Of a stretch of 39,907 bases of DNA, positions 4,016 through 27,447 are shown one piece after another. Every line of letters begins with the position of its first letter. Position 1 is the first letter of the stretch. Source of the DNA: Desulfobacteraceae bacterium (GTDB taxonomy: Bacteria > Desulfobacterota > DSM-4660 > Desulfatiglandales > Desulfatiglandaceae). The translations under genes and the position numbers were made by a program. Under the pieces are notes generated by a model, which was not told the DNA's origin, did not search any database, and saw only the letters and a list, made by a program, of their open reading frames with translations. Location of the stretch: assembly GCA_030613055.1 (NCBI GenBank), contig JAUWMR010000036.1, positions 1-39,907 on the forward strand, written 5' to 3'.

Positions 4016-5140
4016 GTGAAAAACCCTTTTGTATATGGTGAAACGGTAAGCGGCGAGAATTTTTGTAACAGGACTCGGGAAATCAAGGAGCTCGTTGCAG
4101 ATATCATAAACTGTCAGAATGTAATTATATTTTCTCCAAGGAGATATGGGAAGACCTCACTTATTAAACAGGTCCTGCGTAAGGTGAAGGCGAAAGGAAT
4201 ACTTACCTTTTATATTGACCTGTATCCGGCTATCAATAAAAGGAAGTTTATCGAGATATATGCCGGTGCAATATCAACCGGAATCCCCGGAGGTGTCCGT
4301 CAAATCGCGAAAAAAATAAAGGAATACCTTCCCAGGATTATCCCAAAGGTTGTGATGGATGGGCAGTCTGTTCATTTTGAATTTGAGTTTGATCGTACTT
4401 TAAATATTTCACCACATATCGATGATCTTCTTGTTGCTGTAAAAAAAGTGGCTGACCAGAAAAAGAAAACAGCCGTTGTAGTTTTTGATGAGTTTCAGGA
4501 AATCGCGAATTTCGATGATGATGAAATCGAAAGGAAAATGAGGTCTGCATTTCAAAATCACAGGAATATTTCCTATATATTTATGGGAAGTAAGACACAT
4601 TTGATGCGGGATATATTTAACAACCCCAACCGTCCTTTTTATAAAAGCGGAAAACACTTTCCACTGGATAAAATTGATCAAAAAGAGTTGAGCCTTTTTG
4701 CTAAAAAGAAATTTTCAGATCAGAATATTGTTATTAGTCGAAATGAATTAAACAGCATATTGAATAATACTGAATGTCATCCCTATTATTTTCAGATGCT
4801 TTGCCATGTTTTATGGGAATTATGCATGGGTAGCAGGGTGATTACCGAAGCAGATGTTGATGAGGCTCTTGATATCCTTATTTCAAGAGAATCAAGCGTT
4901 TATGTTGCCATATGGGAAGAACTGACAATCAAGCAAAAGAACCTGATGGTTGCATTAGCTAATGAGGAATACCCGGAAGTCTTCAGCAAAATGTTTTTAG
5001 AAACATACGGCCTTGGTTCATCTTCATCTATCCAGAAGGCATTGAAAAGGCTGGTAATAAAGGAACTTGTTCAACAAAAAAACGGCAGTTATGTAATCTA
5101 TGATCTGTTTTTCAAAAAATGGATACAATGCACCTGGTGA
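4016..5140 (+). CDS. P-loop ATPase of the archaeal ATPase (ATPase_2) type
   Basis: This 374-residue STAND/AAA-like NTPase has Walker A SPRRYGKTS at residues 40-48, Walker B AVVVFDEFQE at 153-162, and a sensor-1-like strand YIFMGSK at 187-193. A C-terminal winged-helix-like region covers about 305-374. The family (MNS clade of archaeal-type ATPases) is widespread in archaea and anaerobic bacteria, often in accessory regions, and its biochemical role is poorly defined. The GTG start is preceded by a GAGGGG ribosome-binding site. The gene is noticeably more A/T-rich than the metabolic genes downstream and stands alone, consistent with horizontal acquisition. Confidence 0.8.
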   Translation: MKNPFVYGETVSGENFCNRTREIKELVADIINCQNVIIFSPRRYGKTSLIKQVLRKVKAKGILTFYIDLYPAINKRKFIEIYAGAISTGIPGGVRQIAKKIKEYLPRIIPKVVMDGQSVHFEFEFDRTLNISPHIDDLLVAVKKVADQKKKTAVVVFDEFQEIANFDDDEIERKMRSAFQNHRNISYIFMGSKTHLMRDIFNNPNRPFYKSGKHFPLDKIDQKELSLFAKKKFSDQNIVISRNELNSILNNTECHPYYFQMLCHVLWELCMGSRVITEADVDEALDILISRESSVYVAIWEELTIKQKNLMVALANEEYPEVFSKMFLETYGLGSSSSIQKALKRLVIKELVQQKNGSYVIYDLFFKKWIQCTW

Positions 5141-5152
5141 GCGGAAAAACCC

Positions 5153-5185
5153 ATTACGCTACCAGCGTTACGCTGTTAGCGTAAT
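5153..5185. repeat. Nested inverted repeat after the ATPase gene
   Basis: Outer arms ATTACGCTA/TAGCGTAAT enclose inner arms AGCGT/ACGCT. The structure starts 13 bp after the ATPase stop codon. No U-run follows on the plus strand, so it is not a textbook terminator, though it could stabilise the 3' end. Confidence 0.45.
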
Positions 5186-5296
5186 TGAATTTAACAAGTT
5201 ATAAAATCCAGACTTTATCGAGATTTTATATACCGCCCCAGGCGGAATTTCGCAGCTTGAGGAAAATATATTTTCATACAACGCCCATAACTCAAC

Positions 5297-5400
5297 TTCG
5301 GTGTGTCCTTGTAGCGCAGAGCTTCAGCTCTGCCTTGAAATGCAAGGCTGAATCTCTGCCTTGAGATGCAGGGCTGAGGCCCTGCACTACGTTCGAGAAA
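5297..5400. repeat. Intergenic GTAGCGCAGAGC/GCCCTGCACTAC repeat, copy 1
   Basis: The repeat begins TTCGGTGTG, reads on through CTTGTAGCGCAGAGC, contains GC-rich hairpins, and ends in AGGCCCTGCACTACGTTCGA. A related copy is at 27279-27368 with the same ends and a different middle. It lies in the 450-bp gap before nnr, which otherwise shows no gene. Confidence 0.65.
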
Positions 5401-5592
5401 CAAAATATGCAATTAACTTAGAGGATTTTTCTGTTCTTTGACAATTGGATATTGCAACGTTGCAGTCATTGAACCTATCAGACCGAAGGTCTGTTGGTTA
5501 AGGAAAAACAGGGTTGAGCGAAGCGAACTAAGTTCAAAGTGTGGAGATATGAATTTAAAAGCCAAGATGGAGTTTGATTTTGGAGGTGAGAA

Positions 5593-7167
5593 ATGAAAGT
5601 TAGCAGTGTTTCTGAGATGAGGGAGTTAGACAGGACCGCAATAGAACAGTTTGGCATTAAGGATGAACTATTGATGGAAAATGCCGGTGAGTCCACCTGT
5701 TTTGTCATCTCAAAGGAGTTCGGAATAAGGGACAGGAGATTCATTGTGTTCTGCGGTATAGGAAATAACGGTGGAGACGGATTTGTTATAGCCAGGAAGA
5801 TCCATTCAAATGGCGGGGACGTTCAGGTTTTTCTTTTAGGCAACCCGGATAAGTTCAAGGGCGCTGCAAAATTAAACATGGACATCGCATCCAGACTTCC
5901 CATTGAAATGCGTGAGATTGATTCCATTGAATCCATAAGAACAGATGTGGCACACTCGGACGCTTTAGTGGACGCTATATTTGGTACGGGCTTAGCACGG
6001 GATGTCGGGGGAATATATAAAGACGTAATTGACCTGATAAACCGGAGCGGAAAAATCGTGTTCAGCGTCGACATTCCCTCGGGGGTACACGGGGACACGG
6101 GCAAGGTAATGGGTACGGCAGTTAGAGCGGACTACACCGTCACCTTTGGCCTTCCCAAAACAGGCAATATGCTTTTTCCGGGATATGATCTGTGCGGTAA
6201 ACTATATGTCACACACATATCCTTTCCCCCATCAATGTATAACACGGATTCGATGAAGATTGAGCTCAATGACCCGCCGGCACTTCCCGCAAGGAACAAG
6301 AACGGTTATAAGGGTTATTTTGGCGATGTCCTGTTTATTGCGGGCGCTTCTAACTATTTTGGCGCGCCCTATTTTGCCGCGCTTTCTTTTATGAAGGCCG
6401 GTGGCGGGTATTCACGGCTTGCCGCACCGGCATCTATGGCGCCATTTATTGCAAACAAGGGAAGTGAGATCGTATTTGTTCCCCAAAAAGAGACAGGTCC
6501 AGGAAGCATCTCCCTTGAAAATAAAGAAGCGCTTTTAAAGATGTCAGAGAAAGTTGATATGGTGGTACTGGGTCCCGGACTGTCCCTTGAGGAAGAAACC
6601 CAGGAATTGGCAAGGGAATTGGCAAAAGAGATCGACAAACCCCTGCTCATAGACGGTGACGGTATTACGGCCCTGTGTAAAGACATAAAGATCATAAAAC
6701 AAAGAAAGGCAGGGACCATTTTAACGCCTCATTTGGGTGAGATGTCCAGGTTAACCAATATGGGTGTCAGTGAAATAGACACAGCGAAATTAGATGTCCT
6801 TAAGCGCACCGCTCAAGACCTGAATTCAGTTATCGTATTAAAAGGCGCTCATTCGCTGATAGGATATCCTGACGAAACGGTTCTTATAAACATGACAGGT
6901 AATTCCGGTATGGCAACGGCAGGCTCAGGGGATGTGCTTGCAGGTACAATCGCCGCAATGTGCTGCCTGGGACTATCGCTTGAGGAAGCCGTAGGAAAGG
7001 GCGTATTCATTCACGGCCTTTCGGGCGATCTTGCGGCAGAAGATGAGGGTGAAGACGGCATAACTGCCCAGGATATCTTGGAGTATCTTCCCCTTGCCGT
7101 AAAAATGGACAGGGAGGGTCTTGATGAAACTCTCATAGAACGGTACATTGGGGCATATGTGATATAA
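5593..7167 (+). CDS. nnr: Bifunctional NAD(P)H-hydrate epimerase / ADP-dependent dehydratase
   Basis: The 524-residue enzyme repairs hydrated NADH and NADPH (NADHX, NADPHX). The N-terminal epimerase half (about 1-215) has GNNGGDG at 57-63 and a conserved Asp at 128. The C-terminal dehydratase half (about 230-505) is ribokinase-like, with the YKGYFGDVLFIAGA strand at 239-252, TPHLGEM at 378-384 and the nucleotide loop GNSGMATAGSGDVLAG at 436-451. The length is normal for the fused bacterial form. The start has a strong GGAGGTGAG ribosome-binding site. It appears monocistronic; a heptanucleotide repeat starts exactly at its stop codon. Confidence 0.95.
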   Translation: MKVSSVSEMRELDRTAIEQFGIKDELLMENAGESTCFVISKEFGIRDRRFIVFCGIGNNGGDGFVIARKIHSNGGDVQVFLLGNPDKFKGAAKLNMDIASRLPIEMREIDSIESIRTDVAHSDALVDAIFGTGLARDVGGIYKDVIDLINRSGKIVFSVDIPSGVHGDTGKVMGTAVRADYTVTFGLPKTGNMLFPGYDLCGKLYVTHISFPPSMYNTDSMKIELNDPPALPARNKNGYKGYFGDVLFIAGASNYFGAPYFAALSFMKAGGGYSRLAAPASMAPFIANKGSEIVFVPQKETGPGSISLENKEALLKMSEKVDMVVLGPGLSLEEETQELARELAKEIDKPLLIDGDGITALCKDIKIIKQRKAGTILTPHLGEMSRLTNMGVSEIDTAKLDVLKRTAQDLNSVIVLKGAHSLIGYPDETVLINMTGNSGMATAGSGDVLAGTIAAMCCLGLSLEEAVGKGVFIHGLSGDLAAEDEGEDGITAQDILEYLPLAVKMDREGLDETLIERYIGAYVI

Positions 7168-7228
7168 GGCGTAAGGCGCAAGGCGCAAGGCGCAAGGCGC
7201 AAGGCGTAAGGCGCAAGGCGCAAGGCGC
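7166..7228. repeat. Tandem heptanucleotide array, nine units of AAGGCGY
   Basis: Nine perfect 7-bp units (AAGGCGC with AAGGCGT at units 1 and 6) run head to tail from the TAA of nnr, and a partial tenth follows. Because 7 is not a multiple of 3, the complementary strand reads as a Leu-Ala-Pro/Cys-Ala-Leu-Arg low-complexity peptide in all frames. That is not a gene. The array sits about 40 bp upstream of the binding-protein start. Confidence 0.95.
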
Positions 7229-7268
7229 AAGGTAAAGGAGATATTGTGGAATTGAATGGAGTAAAGCC

Positions 7269-8267
7269 ATGAGAAGATGTCTTAAACTATTAGTTTTGAT
7301 TGCAGTTCCAGCGCTGATCTATTTTGCCTTTTTCGGGTGCGGGGCGAAAGACGATGTCTTTCATATCGGGGTCCTGCAGTGGACGGAAAAGGTCCGGCCA
7401 TTTGAACTGACCTATAAAGGTGTGCTTGATGGTCTTAGTGTGAAAGGCTTTAAGCAAGGGGTGAATTTGAAAATCAGCTACAGGAATGCGGAGCAGGATA
7501 AAACCCTGGCGCTAAAAATCGCCCGGGAATTTGTGAAAAAAGAGGTTGATGTAATAGTTTCCTTAGGAACAGGGAGTAGTCTCGCGGCCCTTAAGGCCAC
7601 TGAAAACAAGCAGATTCCCATTGTATTTTCTATTGTTGGAGCCCCAAAGGCTACCGGTATTATCCATGATTTTGATGATTCGGGACGAAATATTACCGGC
7701 GTCAGCATGAAGGTTCCGGTGAAGGAACAATTTGAGATTGTCAAGGAGGCCCTTCCCGGAGTAAAAATGATGGGCATTATCTATTGCACCGAGATGCCCC
7801 AGGCCGTGTCCACCGGTAAAGAAGCCGCTGTGGCTGCCCCTGAATTTGGCTGGAGCCAGTTTACGATTTCTTTGCCAATAGAGAAATTACCTCAACTTGG
7901 AAAAATAGTTCAATCATTAGCGCAAAAAGTCGATGCCATCTACATACCGACTGACCCTGTTTTAGGGCTACCTGAAAATCTTAAAAAGATCATTCGTTTA
8001 TCAGACGAGCAAAGGATACCGGTTTTGGCCGTGGCAAGAAAATTTGTGGAAGACGGCGCATTGATGGCTGTGCACTGCGATTTCTACGAGATCGGGCGGC
8101 AGGCCGCAGACCCCATAGTCAAGGTGCTGGGAGGTGTTGACCCGCGAACGATTCCTTCACAGCTGCCTACCATGAAAAAGTTTTCTCTTAATCTGAAAAA
8201 GGCACAGCAATTGCATATTAAAATCAAGCGCAATATTGTTTTAAAGGCTGATAATGTTTTTGATTAA
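7269..8267 (+). CDS. ABC-type periplasmic substrate-binding lipoprotein (TrpX-like)
   Basis: The 332-residue protein belongs to the ABC_sub_bind family (type 1 periplasmic fold). It has an N-terminal export signal (basic start, hydrophobic stretch 7-22) and a likely lipidation Cys24 in FFGC, an atypical lipobox. Family landmarks include DVIVSLGTGSSLAALKAT, IPIVFSIVGAPKATG and a late MAVHCDFYEIGRQAA segment. No permease or ATPase gene is adjacent. It precedes a membrane sensor kinase, and without the intervening repeat element the two genes would be 17 bp apart. I infer that it presents a ligand to the kinase rather than feeding a transporter. The ligand is unknown. Confidence 0.85.
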   Translation: MRRCLKLLVLIAVPALIYFAFFGCGAKDDVFHIGVLQWTEKVRPFELTYKGVLDGLSVKGFKQGVNLKISYRNAEQDKTLALKIAREFVKKEVDVIVSLGTGSSLAALKATENKQIPIVFSIVGAPKATGIIHDFDDSGRNITGVSMKVPVKEQFEIVKEALPGVKMMGIIYCTEMPQAVSTGKEAAVAAPEFGWSQFTISLPIEKLPQLGKIVQSLAQKVDAIYIPTDPVLGLPENLKKIIRLSDEQRIPVLAVARKFVEDGALMAVHCDFYEIGRQAADPIVKVLGGVDPRTIPSQLPTMKKFSLNLKKAQQLHIKIKRNIVLKADNVFD

Positions 8268-8279
8268 TTGAAAAGGTGA

Positions 8280-8412
8280 CAGTCTCGTAAAAAGTCCAAA
8301 CTACCGTCACTCCCGCGAAGGCGGGAGTCCAAAACTGCTTGAAATGACTGGATTCCCGCCTCCGCGGGAATGACAAAAAAAAAGACAGATGAAGACTTTC
8401 TACGAGTTCATC
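8280..8412. mobile_element. MITE-like element, copy 1
   Basis: The element is 133 bp with terminal inverted sequences (left CAGTCTCGTAAAAAGTC, right GACTTTCTACGAGTTCATC) and two internal hairpins of the CTCCCGCG/CGCGGGA type. It is flanked by a perfect direct repeat, AAAAGGTGA, at 8271-8279 and 8413-8421. Related copies are at 16971, 21011 and 27105. It encodes no protein, so it must have been mobilised in trans. Confidence 0.8.
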
Positions 8413-8426
8413 AAAAGGTGATTATT

Positions 8427-9107
8427 ATGCAGATTTCAGGGTTTTTACCGAAAAGATTAAGCACCCGGTTGATAGTTATGACACTCATAGCGGGTTTGCT
8501 TCCTGTTTTAATCTTTACCCTTTTGATAAACATATTCGCCATTCAATTCCCCGCTGAAACCGATCGTGCCATTCAAGAGGGACAGGAGGAACAGTGGCAA
8601 CGCAGTGAAGCCGTATTGAGGCAGATGGCGGAAGATTTTATCCGACAAAAGACGTTAGATGTGGCCCTTCAATTGGAATTATTCCTCCAGACCCACCCTG
8701 AGATGACGGTCAAAGACCTGCAAAATCACACAAAATTCAGGGAAATCGCCATTCAACCGGTGGGAAAAACAGGATACACGGCCGTGCAGGATTCTGATAC
8801 TGCCATTAATCGCTTTCACAAAAGTCCCAAAATAGAAAATGTAGACCTGCATTCTTTATCGGAAAAACTGCCCGGGTTCTGGGCTGTTATGGAGGCCAGC
8901 CTGAACGGAAAATATTCTCACGGGTACTACCGGTGGAAAGAACCTGACGGGGAAATACGGGACAAATTCATGTACATAGCGCCGGTTGGTGTAAGCACCT
9001 CGGATGGTGTTCGATTTGGAGTTGCGGCAACTACCTATATAGACGAGTTCACTCAATCCATTCGGGGGCCGCCCAGGACGTCTCCCGCAGTACAACACGC
9101 TACCTGA
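8427..9107 (+). CDS. Sensor histidine kinase, N-terminal periplasmic sensor part (frameshifted)
   Basis: The 226-residue product has a transmembrane helix at about 15-38 and an extracytoplasmic Cache-like sensor region (GKTGYTAVQDSDT, FMYIAPV, FGVAATTYIDEF). It ends abruptly after TQSIRG. Around 9064-9068 a run of five G shifts the frame. With one base added to the run, translation continues as AAQDVSRSTTRYLMSTVNS straight into the next ORF, so both are one gene. I chose the ATG at 8427 over the upstream one at 8370 because it has an AAGGTG ribosome-binding site 6 bp away, and the extra codons would come from the repeat element. Confidence 0.8.
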   Translation: MQISGFLPKRLSTRLIVMTLIAGLLPVLIFTLLINIFAIQFPAETDRAIQEGQEEQWQRSEAVLRQMAEDFIRQKTLDVALQLELFLQTHPEMTVKDLQNHTKFREIAIQPVGKTGYTAVQDSDTAINRFHKSPKIENVDLHSLSEKLPGFWAVMEASLNGKYSHGYYRWKEPDGEIRDKFMYIAPVGVSTSDGVRFGVAATTYIDEFTQSIRGPPRTSPAVQHAT

Positions 9108-11278
9108 TGAGCACTGTTAACAGCCAAATACAAGCTCTCAGAACGGCGGGATTTCTGTTTATGGGTCTGGGAATTGTGATTATCCTTGCCTTAGCGTACT
9201 GGATGGGGATGTATTTTTCCCGTGCCATCACCCGGCTTCGAGAAGCTACAAGGGCAGTCAATCAAGGAAATCTTGATGTACAGGTAAGATCCACTATGTC
9301 AGGTGATGTGGGAGAATTAATAGAAGACTTCAACCAGATGATAGTTCAGCTTGCAACAACGACTGTTAAAAAAGAAAAATTAGAGGCAAGTGAAGAAAAA
9401 TACAGGACCATCGTCGAAAGTATTGAGGAAGGCTATTACGAGTGTGATATTACCGGAACCTTTACATTCGTGAACGATTCGCTTTGTAAAATTATCGGCT
9501 ATTCAAGAGATGAATTTATGGGCATTAACAGCCGGCAATTAATGGACAAGGATACTGCAAAGAAGGTTTATCAGGTGTTCAATAAAGTATTCAAAACAGG
9601 GATACCTATCAAATTGCTTGACTGGGAATTTACAAAAAAAGACGGGACCAGGGGATTCATTTCGGCCTCCATATCCCTGATAAAGGACGCGGGGGGGCAT
9701 ACCGTTGGGTTCCGGGGCATTTTTCGGGACATAACCGATTGGAAACTAATAGAAGAAAAATTAATAAACGAAAAAGAAAGATTTGAATCCCTGGCAATGG
9801 ATGCGCCCTTTGGCATGTCGATCATCAATCCTGATGGGGCATATGAATATGTAAATCCTGAATTTACCGGGATATTTGGTTATACATTAGGTGATATCCC
9901 GAACGGAAAGACCTGGTTTAAACTTGCATTTCCTGATCAGGAATACAGACAGGAGGTTATTTCCACATGGATTAATGATTTGAAGGAGGCAAAACCGAGG
10001 GCCTTAAGACCACAGGAGTTCAAGGTCACATGCAAGGACGGCTCAATAAAAAATATCCGCTTCAGGCCAGTGATGCTAAAGAATAAAAATCAGCTCGTAA
10101 CATATGAGGACGTTACCGAAACGAGGAAACTTGAGGCCCAGCTCAGGCAGGCAACCAAGATGGAGGCCATTGGTACCCTGGCAGGTGGCATTGCCCATGA
10201 CTTCAACAACCTGCTTATGGCCATACAGGGGAATGCCTCATTAATGTTATTAGATATCGATTCCGGTCATCCCTCTTACGAGAGGCTGAAAAACATCCAG
10301 CAGTATGTCCTTAATGGAGCAGGGCTCACCAAGCAGCTTTTAGGCTTTGCCAGGGGCGGAAAATATGAGGTCAGGGCTACAGAGATAAATGAGTTAATAG
10401 AGAAAAATTCCGAGATGTTCGGCAGAACGAAAAAGGAGATATCAATCCATCCAAAATATCAGGGAGACATCTGGACCGTGAACGTAGACCGCGGGCAGAT
10501 TGAACAGGTACTTCTAAACCTCTTTGTCAACGCATGGCAGGCCATGCCGGGAGGCGGGAACCTGTATCTTGAGACGGAAAATGTCGTTATTGATGAAAGC
10601 TCCATGAATAAGTTTTTTGTGAAGCCCGGCAATTATGTAAAAATATCCGTGACTGATACCGGAGTCGGAATGGATGAGGGAACACTTCAAAGGATATTTG
10701 ACCCGTTTTTTACAACCAAAGAGATGGGCAGGGGGACAGGTCTGGGATTGGCTTCTGCTTACGGGATTATAAAAAACCATGAAGGCTATATTAACGTCTA
10801 TAGTGAGATAGGCAAAGGTACTACAGTTAATTTTTATCTACCGGCAATAAAAGAAGGGCGCACAGAGTTAAGATCCGAGACCAACATTGAGGGTGAAATT
10901 GTCCGGGGAACAGAGACAATTCTTTTTGTTGATGATGAAGATATAATAGTTGATATCGGGAAACAGATGCTGAATACAATGGGTTACCAGGTCTTGTTAG
11001 CCAGGGGTGGGAAAGAGGCAATAGAAGTCTACAGGGAAAATCACGATAATATACATATGGTCGTACTTGATATGATTATGCCGGATATGGGAGGGGGAGA
11101 AACTTATGACGTGTTGAAGGAAATAAATTCCGATATCAAGGTCCTGCTTTCAAGCGGATACAGCATAAATAGTCAGGCCGCCGGGATACTGGATCGCGGC
11201 TGCGATGGATTTGTTCAGAAGCCTTTTACAATAAGGCAGTTGTCCCTGAAGATCAGGGAAATCCTGGATAAACAATAA
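9107..11278 (+). CDS. Hybrid histidine kinase (HAMP-PAS-PAS-HisKA-HATPase-REC), C-terminal part of split gene
   Basis: The 723-residue product starts in what should be the end of the sensor domain. A transmembrane helix lies at 15-36 and HAMP at about 35-88. Two PAS domains cover about 98-212 and 225-340. The HisKA box AGGIAHDFNN has phospho-acceptor His364. The ATPase has N-box Asn475, DTGVGMD at 517-523, a DPFFTTK segment at 532-538 and GTGLGLA at 543-549. The receiver domain (about 603-720) has Asp609, Asp610, phospho-acceptor Asp655 and Lys705. Its ATG overlaps the upstream stop (TGATG at 9105-9109), so reinitiation could yield a kinase tethered to the membrane but without its sensor. No DNA-binding output domain is present. 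Confidence 0.9.
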   Translation: MSTVNSQIQALRTAGFLFMGLGIVIILALAYWMGMYFSRAITRLREATRAVNQGNLDVQVRSTMSGDVGELIEDFNQMIVQLATTTVKKEKLEASEEKYRTIVESIEEGYYECDITGTFTFVNDSLCKIIGYSRDEFMGINSRQLMDKDTAKKVYQVFNKVFKTGIPIKLLDWEFTKKDGTRGFISASISLIKDAGGHTVGFRGIFRDITDWKLIEEKLINEKERFESLAMDAPFGMSIINPDGAYEYVNPEFTGIFGYTLGDIPNGKTWFKLAFPDQEYRQEVISTWINDLKEAKPRALRPQEFKVTCKDGSIKNIRFRPVMLKNKNQLVTYEDVTETRKLEAQLRQATKMEAIGTLAGGIAHDFNNLLMAIQGNASLMLLDIDSGHPSYERLKNIQQYVLNGAGLTKQLLGFARGGKYEVRATEINELIEKNSEMFGRTKKEISIHPKYQGDIWTVNVDRGQIEQVLLNLFVNAWQAMPGGGNLYLETENVVIDESSMNKFFVKPGNYVKISVTDTGVGMDEGTLQRIFDPFFTTKEMGRGTGLGLASAYGIIKNHEGYINVYSEIGKGTTVNFYLPAIKEGRTELRSETNIEGEIVRGTETILFVDDEDIIVDIGKQMLNTMGYQVLLARGGKEAIEVYRENHDNIHMVVLDMIMPDMGGGETYDVLKEINSDIKVLLSSGYSINSQAAGILDRGCDGFVQKPFTIRQLSLKIREILDKQ

Positions 11279-16879: not shown

Positions 16880-16970
16880 AACCTAATCTTTGGCAGGACT
16901 TTTCGTAACTATTCGGGTTATCAGGTTCAAGGTTTACGCCTGTAGCATTTTTATTTATCATAACTATTGA

Positions 16971-17099
16971 CAGTCTCGCAAAAAGTCAAAATCACGTCAC
17001 TCCCGCGAAAGCGGGAGTCCATAATTATCTGAAATCACTGGATTCCTGCTTTCGCAGGAATGACAGATAAGGGAAAATACGACCTTTTACGAGTTCACC
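16971..17099. mobile_element. MITE-like element, copy 2
   Basis: The left end is CAGTCTCGCAAAAAGTC and the right end is CCTTTTACGAGTTCACC. Internal hairpins are CTCCCGCGAAAGCGGGAG and a related TTCCTGC/GCAGGAA arm pair. It is flanked by the perfect 8-bp duplication ACTATTGA (16963-16970 and 17100-17107). It lies in the icd-SH3 gene gap, ending 20 bp before the SH3 gene's start codon. Confidence 0.78.
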
Positions 17100-17119
17100 A
17101 CTATTGAAACGATACATAA

Positions 17120-18259
17120 ATGGAAGTCCTACATAGTAATAGCGTGTTGGCAATAAAAGCCGTTGCTTTTTTGGGGACCATTACGCTCTTTTTAGTTCCT
17201 TCTTATGGTCCCTGCTCACCCCGTGGGTTTTCAACAGTTACTCACACCGGCACACACACGCCGGATCATTCCCTGGAAATACGAATTGAAAATGAAATAT
17301 CCTCAAGAGATTGGCGCAGGGTTCTTGCACGAAATGATTCTCCTGTGTTTCAAAACTTAGGCGAACAGAACACACCTGTTTCACAAAACCCTGCTACAGA
17401 GGAAAACAGCAAGCAGTTCGGTGTCAGGGGAGTCATAACTACTCCTGTCGGCAACATATATTCAAGGCCCACAACAGGATCATCAATACTGGAAAAGCTG
17501 AATCAGGGAAATGCAGTCACGTTAGTCAGGAAAAAAGGAGAATGGTATGTTGTAATGCTTTATGACGGGCTTATGGGCTGGGCACATGAAGATATTTTTG
17601 CAGAAAGAGACAATGCTTTTAAACCCGGTGAAATTGCCCTGGAGGGGGAAGAAAGGGACTTTTCGCATCTTAAAGATCCCTTTCAACATCCTTCAGTGAC
17701 CGGAGATAAACTCACACTTACGGTCGATGCTGGCCGTGTCCGCGATAAGCCGTCTATTGACTCTAACGTCAAATTCAGGCTGAAACGGGGAGACACCATA
17801 TCCATTCTGGATACAAACGGGGATTGGCTCTTTTTAGTTCTTGAGGATGGAAGACAGGGCTGGGCCCATGAAAGCCTCTTTTGCGCGCCTGAACAGGCCA
17901 CTGCACCGGCCACGGCAGAGCTAAAGAAGATAGAGGATGTTAGATTCGCAACAACACCGGAAGGTAAAGACAAGGTTGTTTTTTTTCTCAATGGCAATTA
18001 TCCGCCTCAGACCTTTGCTATTGAGGAAGACAGGCCGAGGGTGGTCTGCGATTTTTTTGACACGCACCTTGGAACGGGAATAGACCGGAACATGAAAGTT
18101 AACGGCAACGTTGTCAGGCAGATCAGGATTGGAGTCCACAAGGGAGTTGGGTCCAAGGTGAGGGTCGTGCTGGATCTCGTACCCCGTGAAGATCATCATT
18201 CCAGAGTCCGGCAAATGTTTATCAAAGACAAAAATATTTTCACATTAGTGTTAGAGTAG
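17120..18259 (+). CDS. Exported protein with two SH3b domains and a C-terminal AMIN-like domain
   Basis: The 379-residue protein has an N-terminal hydrophobic segment (about 9-28) consistent with a signal peptide or anchor, then a low-complexity linker. Two bacterial SH3 domains lie at about 101-162 and 199-256; both carry the GW-AHE motif (LMGWAHEDIF and RQGWAHESLF). A C-terminal AMIN-like beta domain (about 268-379) ends in VRVVLDLVPRE. SH3b and AMIN domains bind peptidoglycan, so a periplasmic wall-associated role is likely; no amidase domain is fused. It sits just downstream of MITE copy 2 and converges on eno with a 12-bp gap. The start is poorly supported because no strong ribosome-binding site is seen. 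Confidence 0.8.
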   Translation: MEVLHSNSVLAIKAVAFLGTITLFLVPSYGPCSPRGFSTVTHTGTHTPDHSLEIRIENEISSRDWRRVLARNDSPVFQNLGEQNTPVSQNPATEENSKQFGVRGVITTPVGNIYSRPTTGSSILEKLNQGNAVTLVRKKGEWYVVMLYDGLMGWAHEDIFAERDNAFKPGEIALEGEERDFSHLKDPFQHPSVTGDKLTLTVDAGRVRDKPSIDSNVKFRLKRGDTISILDTNGDWLFLVLEDGRQGWAHESLFCAPEQATAPATAELKKIEDVRFATTPEGKDKVVFFLNGNYPPQTFAIEEDRPRVVCDFFDTHLGTGIDRNMKVNGNVVRQIRIGVHKGVGSKVRVVLDLVPREDHHSRVRQMFIKDKNIFTLVLE

Positions 18260-20929: not shown

Positions 20930-21010
20930 GAATCAAACTCCTTTTTTATGATTTTATTTCATCTTGATTCAAAATAGTATAAAGGTTTATAGTTAACGCT
21001 CAAAAGTTGA

Positions 21011-21141
21011 CAAACTCGTAAAAAGTCAGAAAGGACCCGGTTTCGTCATTCCCGCGAAGGCGGGAATCCAGTAAAATCAGCCGCTTCTGGACTCCCGCCT
21101 TCGCGGGAGTGACGGCCTTGGAGACTTTTTACGAATGCATC
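21011..21141. mobile_element. MITE-like element, copy 3
   Basis: The left end is CAAACTCGTAAAAAGTC and the right end is GACTTTTTACGAATGCATC. Two internal hairpins are of the ATTCCCGCG/CGCGGGAAT type. The flanks repeat AAAGTTG (21003-21009 and 21142-21148) with the next base differing, consistent with an older 8-bp duplication. It lies in the divergent cupin-pgk gap. Confidence 0.75.
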
Positions 21142-27039: not shown

Positions 27040-27104
27040 TACACATCCTCATCATTTGAGATAAATATTTGGCATATTCTAACTTCTTGGCGGTCATGAC
27101 TTTT

Positions 27105-27447
27105 GATGGACTCGTAAAAAGTCAAAAAACGTCCTTTTTTGTCATTCCGGCGAAAGCCGGAATCCAGGAATCCCGCCTATGGCGGGACTGGACTCCCGCC
27201 TTCGCGGGAGTGACGGCCTTGGCGACTTTCAAATAACTAAATCATAACCTTTTGATATAAATATTAAATTAGCGCATTTTCGGTGCGGACTTGTAGCGCA
27301 GAGCTTTAGTCCCGCTTTAGCGGGACCATTATGAGGCAGGGCTGAAGCCCTGCACTACGTTTGAAAAAAAGGCAATTCTATATACTATCAAGTTATTTTT
27401 GGTTACAGTGCCGTAGTGCGGCATCACATAGCTTTTTACGAGACTGC
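27105..27447. mobile_element. MITE-like element, copy 4, apparently interrupted
   Basis: The left part (27105-27230) matches the other copies: GATGGACTCGTAAAAAGTC, then three GC hairpins, ending in GGCGACTTTC. The expected right terminus is missing there, but GCTTTTTACGAGACTGC, a right-end sequence, occurs 200 bp on at 27431-27447. The intervening 27231-27430 contains the second GTAGCGCAGAGC repeat, so one element seems to have inserted into the other. Target duplications are not recognisable. Confidence 0.55.
27279..27368. repeat. Intergenic GTAGCGCAGAGC/GCCCTGCACTAC repeat, copy 2
   Basis: It shares the TTCGGTG opening, CTTGTAGCGCAGAGCTT and the AAGCCCTGCACTACGTT end with 5297-5400, but the middle carries a CCCGCTTTAGCGGG hairpin instead. 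It sits between the two parts of MITE copy 4. Confidence 0.6.

Follow-up and report, generated by a model that had tools for sequence, protein, structure and literature searches.

Periplasmic binding proteins encoded beside a hybrid sensor kinase are known from LuxP-LuxQ and TorT-TorS. The locus described here resembles these systems in that a binding-protein gene adjoins a hybrid sensor kinase gene, but it differs from them in that the binding protein belongs to the ABC_sub_bind family (PF04392) and that the sensor domain matched no model of Pfam or NCBIfam. A MITE-like element lies between the two genes. MITE insertion into an operon is an already known kind of event with a precedent in Geobacter, where Chunjie is described in the phosphate-uptake operon of Geobacter uraniireducens, with the operon structure left undisturbed according to the cited title (Chen et al., 2008, cited in PMC10969869). 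Both Chunjie (PMC10969869) and our element are short inverted-repeat elements, present in many copies, that lie inside an operon and have direct repeats; Chunjie measures 178–235 bp as against 135 bp here, and we do not claim that the two form one family. The passage on Chunjie in that review (PMC10969869) mentions no duplicated ribosome-binding site. The Correia elements (NEMIS) of Neisseria are described as transcribable, folding MITEs whose cleavage by RNase III can change the expression of neighbouring genes (PMC10969869; PMC2229807); our element resembles them, in description, as a folding MITE, RNase III processing being a published feature of Correia elements. MITEAba12 (~113 bp, AT-rich targets; PMC6382973) shares with our element its non-autonomous nature, terminal inverted repeats and target-site duplication, but it is reported with a 9-bp duplication and a co-resident parent insertion sequence, ISAba12, whereas here the duplications are of 6–7 bp and no parent was found. 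A literature search returned no report of the present element family or of the gene pair, which does not prove that none exists.

The window, i.e. the whole stretch of 39,907 nucleotides that was analysed, carries the following features around the element:

7269–8267, + strand: intact gene for an ABC_sub_bind (PF04392) substrate-binding protein of 332 aa (ORF list; Pfam, 194.7 bits against a cut-off of 25.9, E = 2.7e-57)
8271–8277, + strand: left target-site duplication AAAAGGT, an orphaned Shine-Dalgarno (repeat scan, flank statistics)
8278–8412, no strand assigned: MITE-like element, GA...TC, 135 bp (repeats, own-genome BLAST, end pattern, fold, flank statistics)
8413–8419, + strand: right target-site duplication AAAAGGT (repeat scan, flank statistics, alignment of relatives)
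8427–9107, + strand: N-terminal half of the sensor kinase (first transmembrane helix, extracytoplasmic sensor domain), ending at a premature stop
9107–11278, + strand: second half of the kinase with HAMP, PAS domains, HATPase_c and receiver (ORF list, Pfam scan)

The nine letters AAAAGGTGA are present at 8271–8279 and 8413–8421 in fully identical copies (100%), so that, as the preliminary description had stated, a direct repeat flanks the element and holds the ribosome-binding site of the kinase gene. The right AAAAGGT and the host GA at 8420–8421 together make up the kinase Shine-Dalgarno AAGGTG(A), and the start codon ATG (8427–8429) stands five bases 3' of the right copy; another ATG at 8370, inside the element, adds just 19 codons to the kinase frame. 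Both copies of the site thus remain, and the use of the right one alone is probable because no ATG, GTG or TTG follows the left copy at a usable distance, as read from the sequence. The distance between the binding-protein and kinase genes is now 159 bp (8268–8426), and the operon is therefore split physically; a functional split is unproven. Further upstream, between a YjeF-type gene and the binding-protein gene, about 9.6 copies of the 7-bp unit AAGGCGC occupy 7166–7232.

Among named relatives, those nearest to the window belong to uncultured Deltaproteobacteria and Desulfobacteraceae. Six distinct orthologous junctions were available for comparison: G026 and G031, which represent other genera of the same family, L094, L095 (Desulfobacteraceae bacterium Eth-SRB2), L096, and L097, whose contig begins within the binding-protein gene (L093 is the G026 locus). 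Their binding proteins share 64–74% identity with that of the window (74% in G026, 73% in G031), and in every one of the orthologous loci found (6/6) the kinase gene directly follows the binding-protein gene with no element between, the stop-to-start gaps being 17 bp in G026 and G031, 20 bp in L094 and 12 bp in L095, L096 and L097. Joining the flanks of the window yields TTGAAAAGGTGATTATT, which is alignable with the relatives and has a gap of 17 bp; the tight spacing that had been foreseen for the empty site is thus the one found in both G026 and G031, and in none of the six loci is the pair far apart or unlinked. Because the relatives, too, have the bases that stand 3' of the duplicated site (GA or AA, followed by TTA), these bases represent host sequence. 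The upstream YjeF-type gene is common to the window, G026 and G031 and was not found in the stretches of L094–L097. Short end-like matches exist in L094 and L095 away from the junction.

We conclude with high confidence that a MITE inserted in the 17-bp gap, and that the 7-bp duplication of AAAAGGT kept the Shine-Dalgarno of the kinase and left a dead copy behind. A non-autonomous element of a multicopy desulfobacterial family inserted between an orphan ABC_sub_bind gene and the gene of a membrane sensor histidine kinase, its transposition presumably driven by a DDE transposase acting in trans. AAAAGGT, duplicated on insertion, holds the core of the kinase Shine-Dalgarno, and because the 7-bp target was duplicated, the kinase retains an intact-looking site at the original distance from its ATG, with the dead copy beyond the element.

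The identity of the gene pair was addressed by profile searches. The tryptophan-binding protein TrpX was rejected as an assignment for the binding protein (197.9 bits, under the NCBIfam equivalog cut-off of 390), as was an ordinary ABC transporter, with no ABC permease or ABC ATPase found in a Pfam scan of the five ORFs from 4016 to 11278; the order-level match G069 (33% identity) adjoins permease- and ATPase-like ORFs instead, as read by eye. In the second half of the kinase HisKA stayed under its cut-off in the Pfam scan. A profile match of the sensor half to the AF1503 receptor (4cq4, E = 1.8e-4), together with a weak structure model (mean pLDDT 61.6, i.e. low confidence; no Foldseek match at E ≤ 0.001), suggests, but does not prove, a Cache-like domain. 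The adjacent binding protein and kinase that define a hybrid sensor kinase pair are kept in all six relatives, and the binding protein would present its ligand to the extracytoplasmic domain of the kinase. The sensor half is 65–79% identical to that of the window over the relatives (65–72% in L094–L097), while the part past the frame break discussed below reaches 62–73% in G031 and G026 and only ~35–41% in L094–L097. With similarity retained jointly by binding protein and sensor half and reduced in the output half of four relatives, the binding protein appears to keep with the sensor half, the output half being freer, and an exchange of output modules in L094–L097 is possible. Among 27 more distant loci of the family (L048–L074, ≤33% identity, some overlapping), a kinase-half match lies downstream on the same strand within the fetched flank in 12 (L054, L057, L058, L059, L060, L063, L064, L065, L066, L068, L073, L074) and elsewhere in two (L062, L067), and the fetched stretches of the other 13 contain none. 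A second sensor gene, 40% similar to the sensor half, is found in L079 (5096–7525) beside a different binding-protein-like gene of the same genome, and three related genomes (L052/L070, L055/L071, L056/L072) encode open frames of ~1270 aa with at least 3–4 tandem ABC_sub_bind-like domains.

In this assembly the reading frame of the window's kinase gene is broken, a point absent from the preliminary description. Read from 8427, the frame breaks at about 9060–9070, at the sensor/kinase junction, and runs into a stop at 9107, where an overlapping ATG opens the second half that continues to 11278. All five relatives whose gene is complete have the kinase as a single open frame of 847–975 aa (G031 runs off its contig). 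Against G026, dN/dS amounts to 0.175 for the binding protein, 0.128 for the sensor and 0.145 for the rest of the kinase, within a range of 0.09–0.28 over all computable gene-by-gene comparisons (one pair was not computable). As the values of the window are as low as those of the other pairs, the kinase has not been decaying for long. The break is either a recent mutation or an assembly error. It makes the present function of the pair in this genome doubtful, so that the functional ligand-protein/kinase pair which the preliminary description proposed is supported for the ancestor and the relatives but not here.

The association of a broken kinase with the only element-bearing locus, while the five complete relatives are open, raises another explanation, namely that decay of the kinase set in after the element had uncoupled the operon, the break being an inactivating mutation that followed a relaxed need for the protein. 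We consider this unlikely: it is a single case, both kinase halves have dN/dS values as low as in the relatives, the break falls in a short G-rich run, a common place for assembly errors, and G026, whose operon is without the element, itself has one internal stop codon in its binding-protein gene (L077, 5391–6386).

As for expression, simple scans found neither a sigma-70-type promoter nor a terminator-like site inside the element, which makes read-through the default expectation, and transcription would continue across it. Translational coupling between the two genes would be lost, since stop and start are now separated by some 150 nt of RNA with a strong fold. We do not claim that the RNA fold masks the Shine-Dalgarno: the predicted accessibility of this site with and without the element, calculated with three flank lengths (0.44 versus 0.37, 0.26 versus 0.36 and 0.02 versus 0.29), shows no uniform trend. 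By analogy with Correia elements, cleavage of the element transcript by RNase III is possible. That the insertion has rewired the operon, with a small hairpin and lost coupling changing the ratio of binding protein to kinase and the sensor and kinase halves made as two proteins, seems to us very improbable. Under such a scheme the right end of the element (TCATC) and AAAAGGTGA would form the small hairpin, its 3' arm being the kinase Shine-Dalgarno, the long stem of the element would remove translational coupling and so alter the ratio, and the overlapping stop and start at 9107 would allow the two halves to be made separately.

The insertion into the 17-bp gap is best delimited by the ends of the element family. 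The element has imperfect terminal inverted repeats (CTCGTAAAAAGTC / GACTTTCTACGAG, 13 bp, 92%) and an interior of two GC-rich palindromes, and the stretch 8262–8440 folds at -60.1 kcal/mol compared with -37.5 kcal/mol for shuffled sequences (z = -5.6). Flanks were compared at 40 places (36 fetched stretches and four in the window), of which 35 yielded one or more copies complete at both ends, 36 copies in total, with the ends taken as GA...TC; L016, L021, L022, L032 and the window copy near 27100 had no both-ended copy by the rule used and were dropped. Left and right flanks agree best over 6 bp (identity 0.847 versus 0.566 for shuffled partners, z = 12.4), with 6-bp flanks perfect in 20 of the 36 copies; the excess at 7 bp is smaller (z = 2.9, perfect in 3/36), and there is none at 3–5 or 8–12 bp. 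The family rule is thus a 6-bp duplication, whereas the copy at 8278–8412 is among those with 7 bp, AAAAGGT. The T preceding GA and the A following TC are near-constant (35/36 each), and for this reason the data also accommodate a 4-bp duplication with TGA...TCA ends in a target of the form A-N4-T. The 9-bp repeat of the preliminary description is this 7-bp duplication plus GA: the nine letters are indeed identical, but their final GA belongs to the element in the left copy, as its first two bases, and to the host in the right copy, which leaves a duplication of 7 bp and not 9. That all of AAAAGGTGA was duplicated, with the element running from C8280 to C8412, would account for nine identical bases on either side; it is nevertheless highly improbable given that GA opens the element in most copies (G in 31/36, A in 36/36), that flank identity peaks at 6 bp and that a GA also occurs after the site in element-free relatives.

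With regard to mobility, the element is short, non-coding and multicopy, has terminal inverted repeats and a target-site duplication, and its site is empty in relatives, as expected for a MITE. BLAST of the junction against its own genome gave 58 matches, some of which represent one place on both strands because the element is palindromic, and the end pattern (≤2 mismatches) occurs at 157 + 147 = 304 sites, compared with 3 + 6 = 9 for the reversed control. In the taxonomic family, 35 of the 46 genomes gave matches, a count that includes the genome of the window itself. Within the window, further copies lie at 16968–17100, 21002–21134 and 27100–27216, the first of them ending just 5' of an ORF that starts at 17120. 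A profile search restricted to the transposase family PF01609 found no match in the own genome, and no end pairs 0.7–3.5 kb apart were seen by eye among the exact-match ends listed (~100 of the 304 end-like sites). That the element instead serves the operon as a conserved attenuator or regulatory RNA, flanked by a repeat through chance, is scarcely tenable despite its strong fold (z = -5.6) and its place between two co-directional genes, since the junctions of all six relatives lack it and similar copies, whose flanks are duplicated (z = 12.4 for the 36 copies), stand at many unrelated places, which refutes a conserved operon feature; a regulatory role may have been co-opted after the insertion.

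The insertion of the MITE next to the kinase gene represents a natural experiment, in which a mobile element has landed on a ribosome-binding site inside a conserved sensor operon in one genome, with six loci without it for comparison, and it illustrates how a start signal can survive an insertion by way of a small duplication. The element family is widespread in the taxonomic family, and the pair of ABC_sub_bind protein and sensor domain, which is kept while the output half of the kinase varies, provides a lead for finding the ligand.
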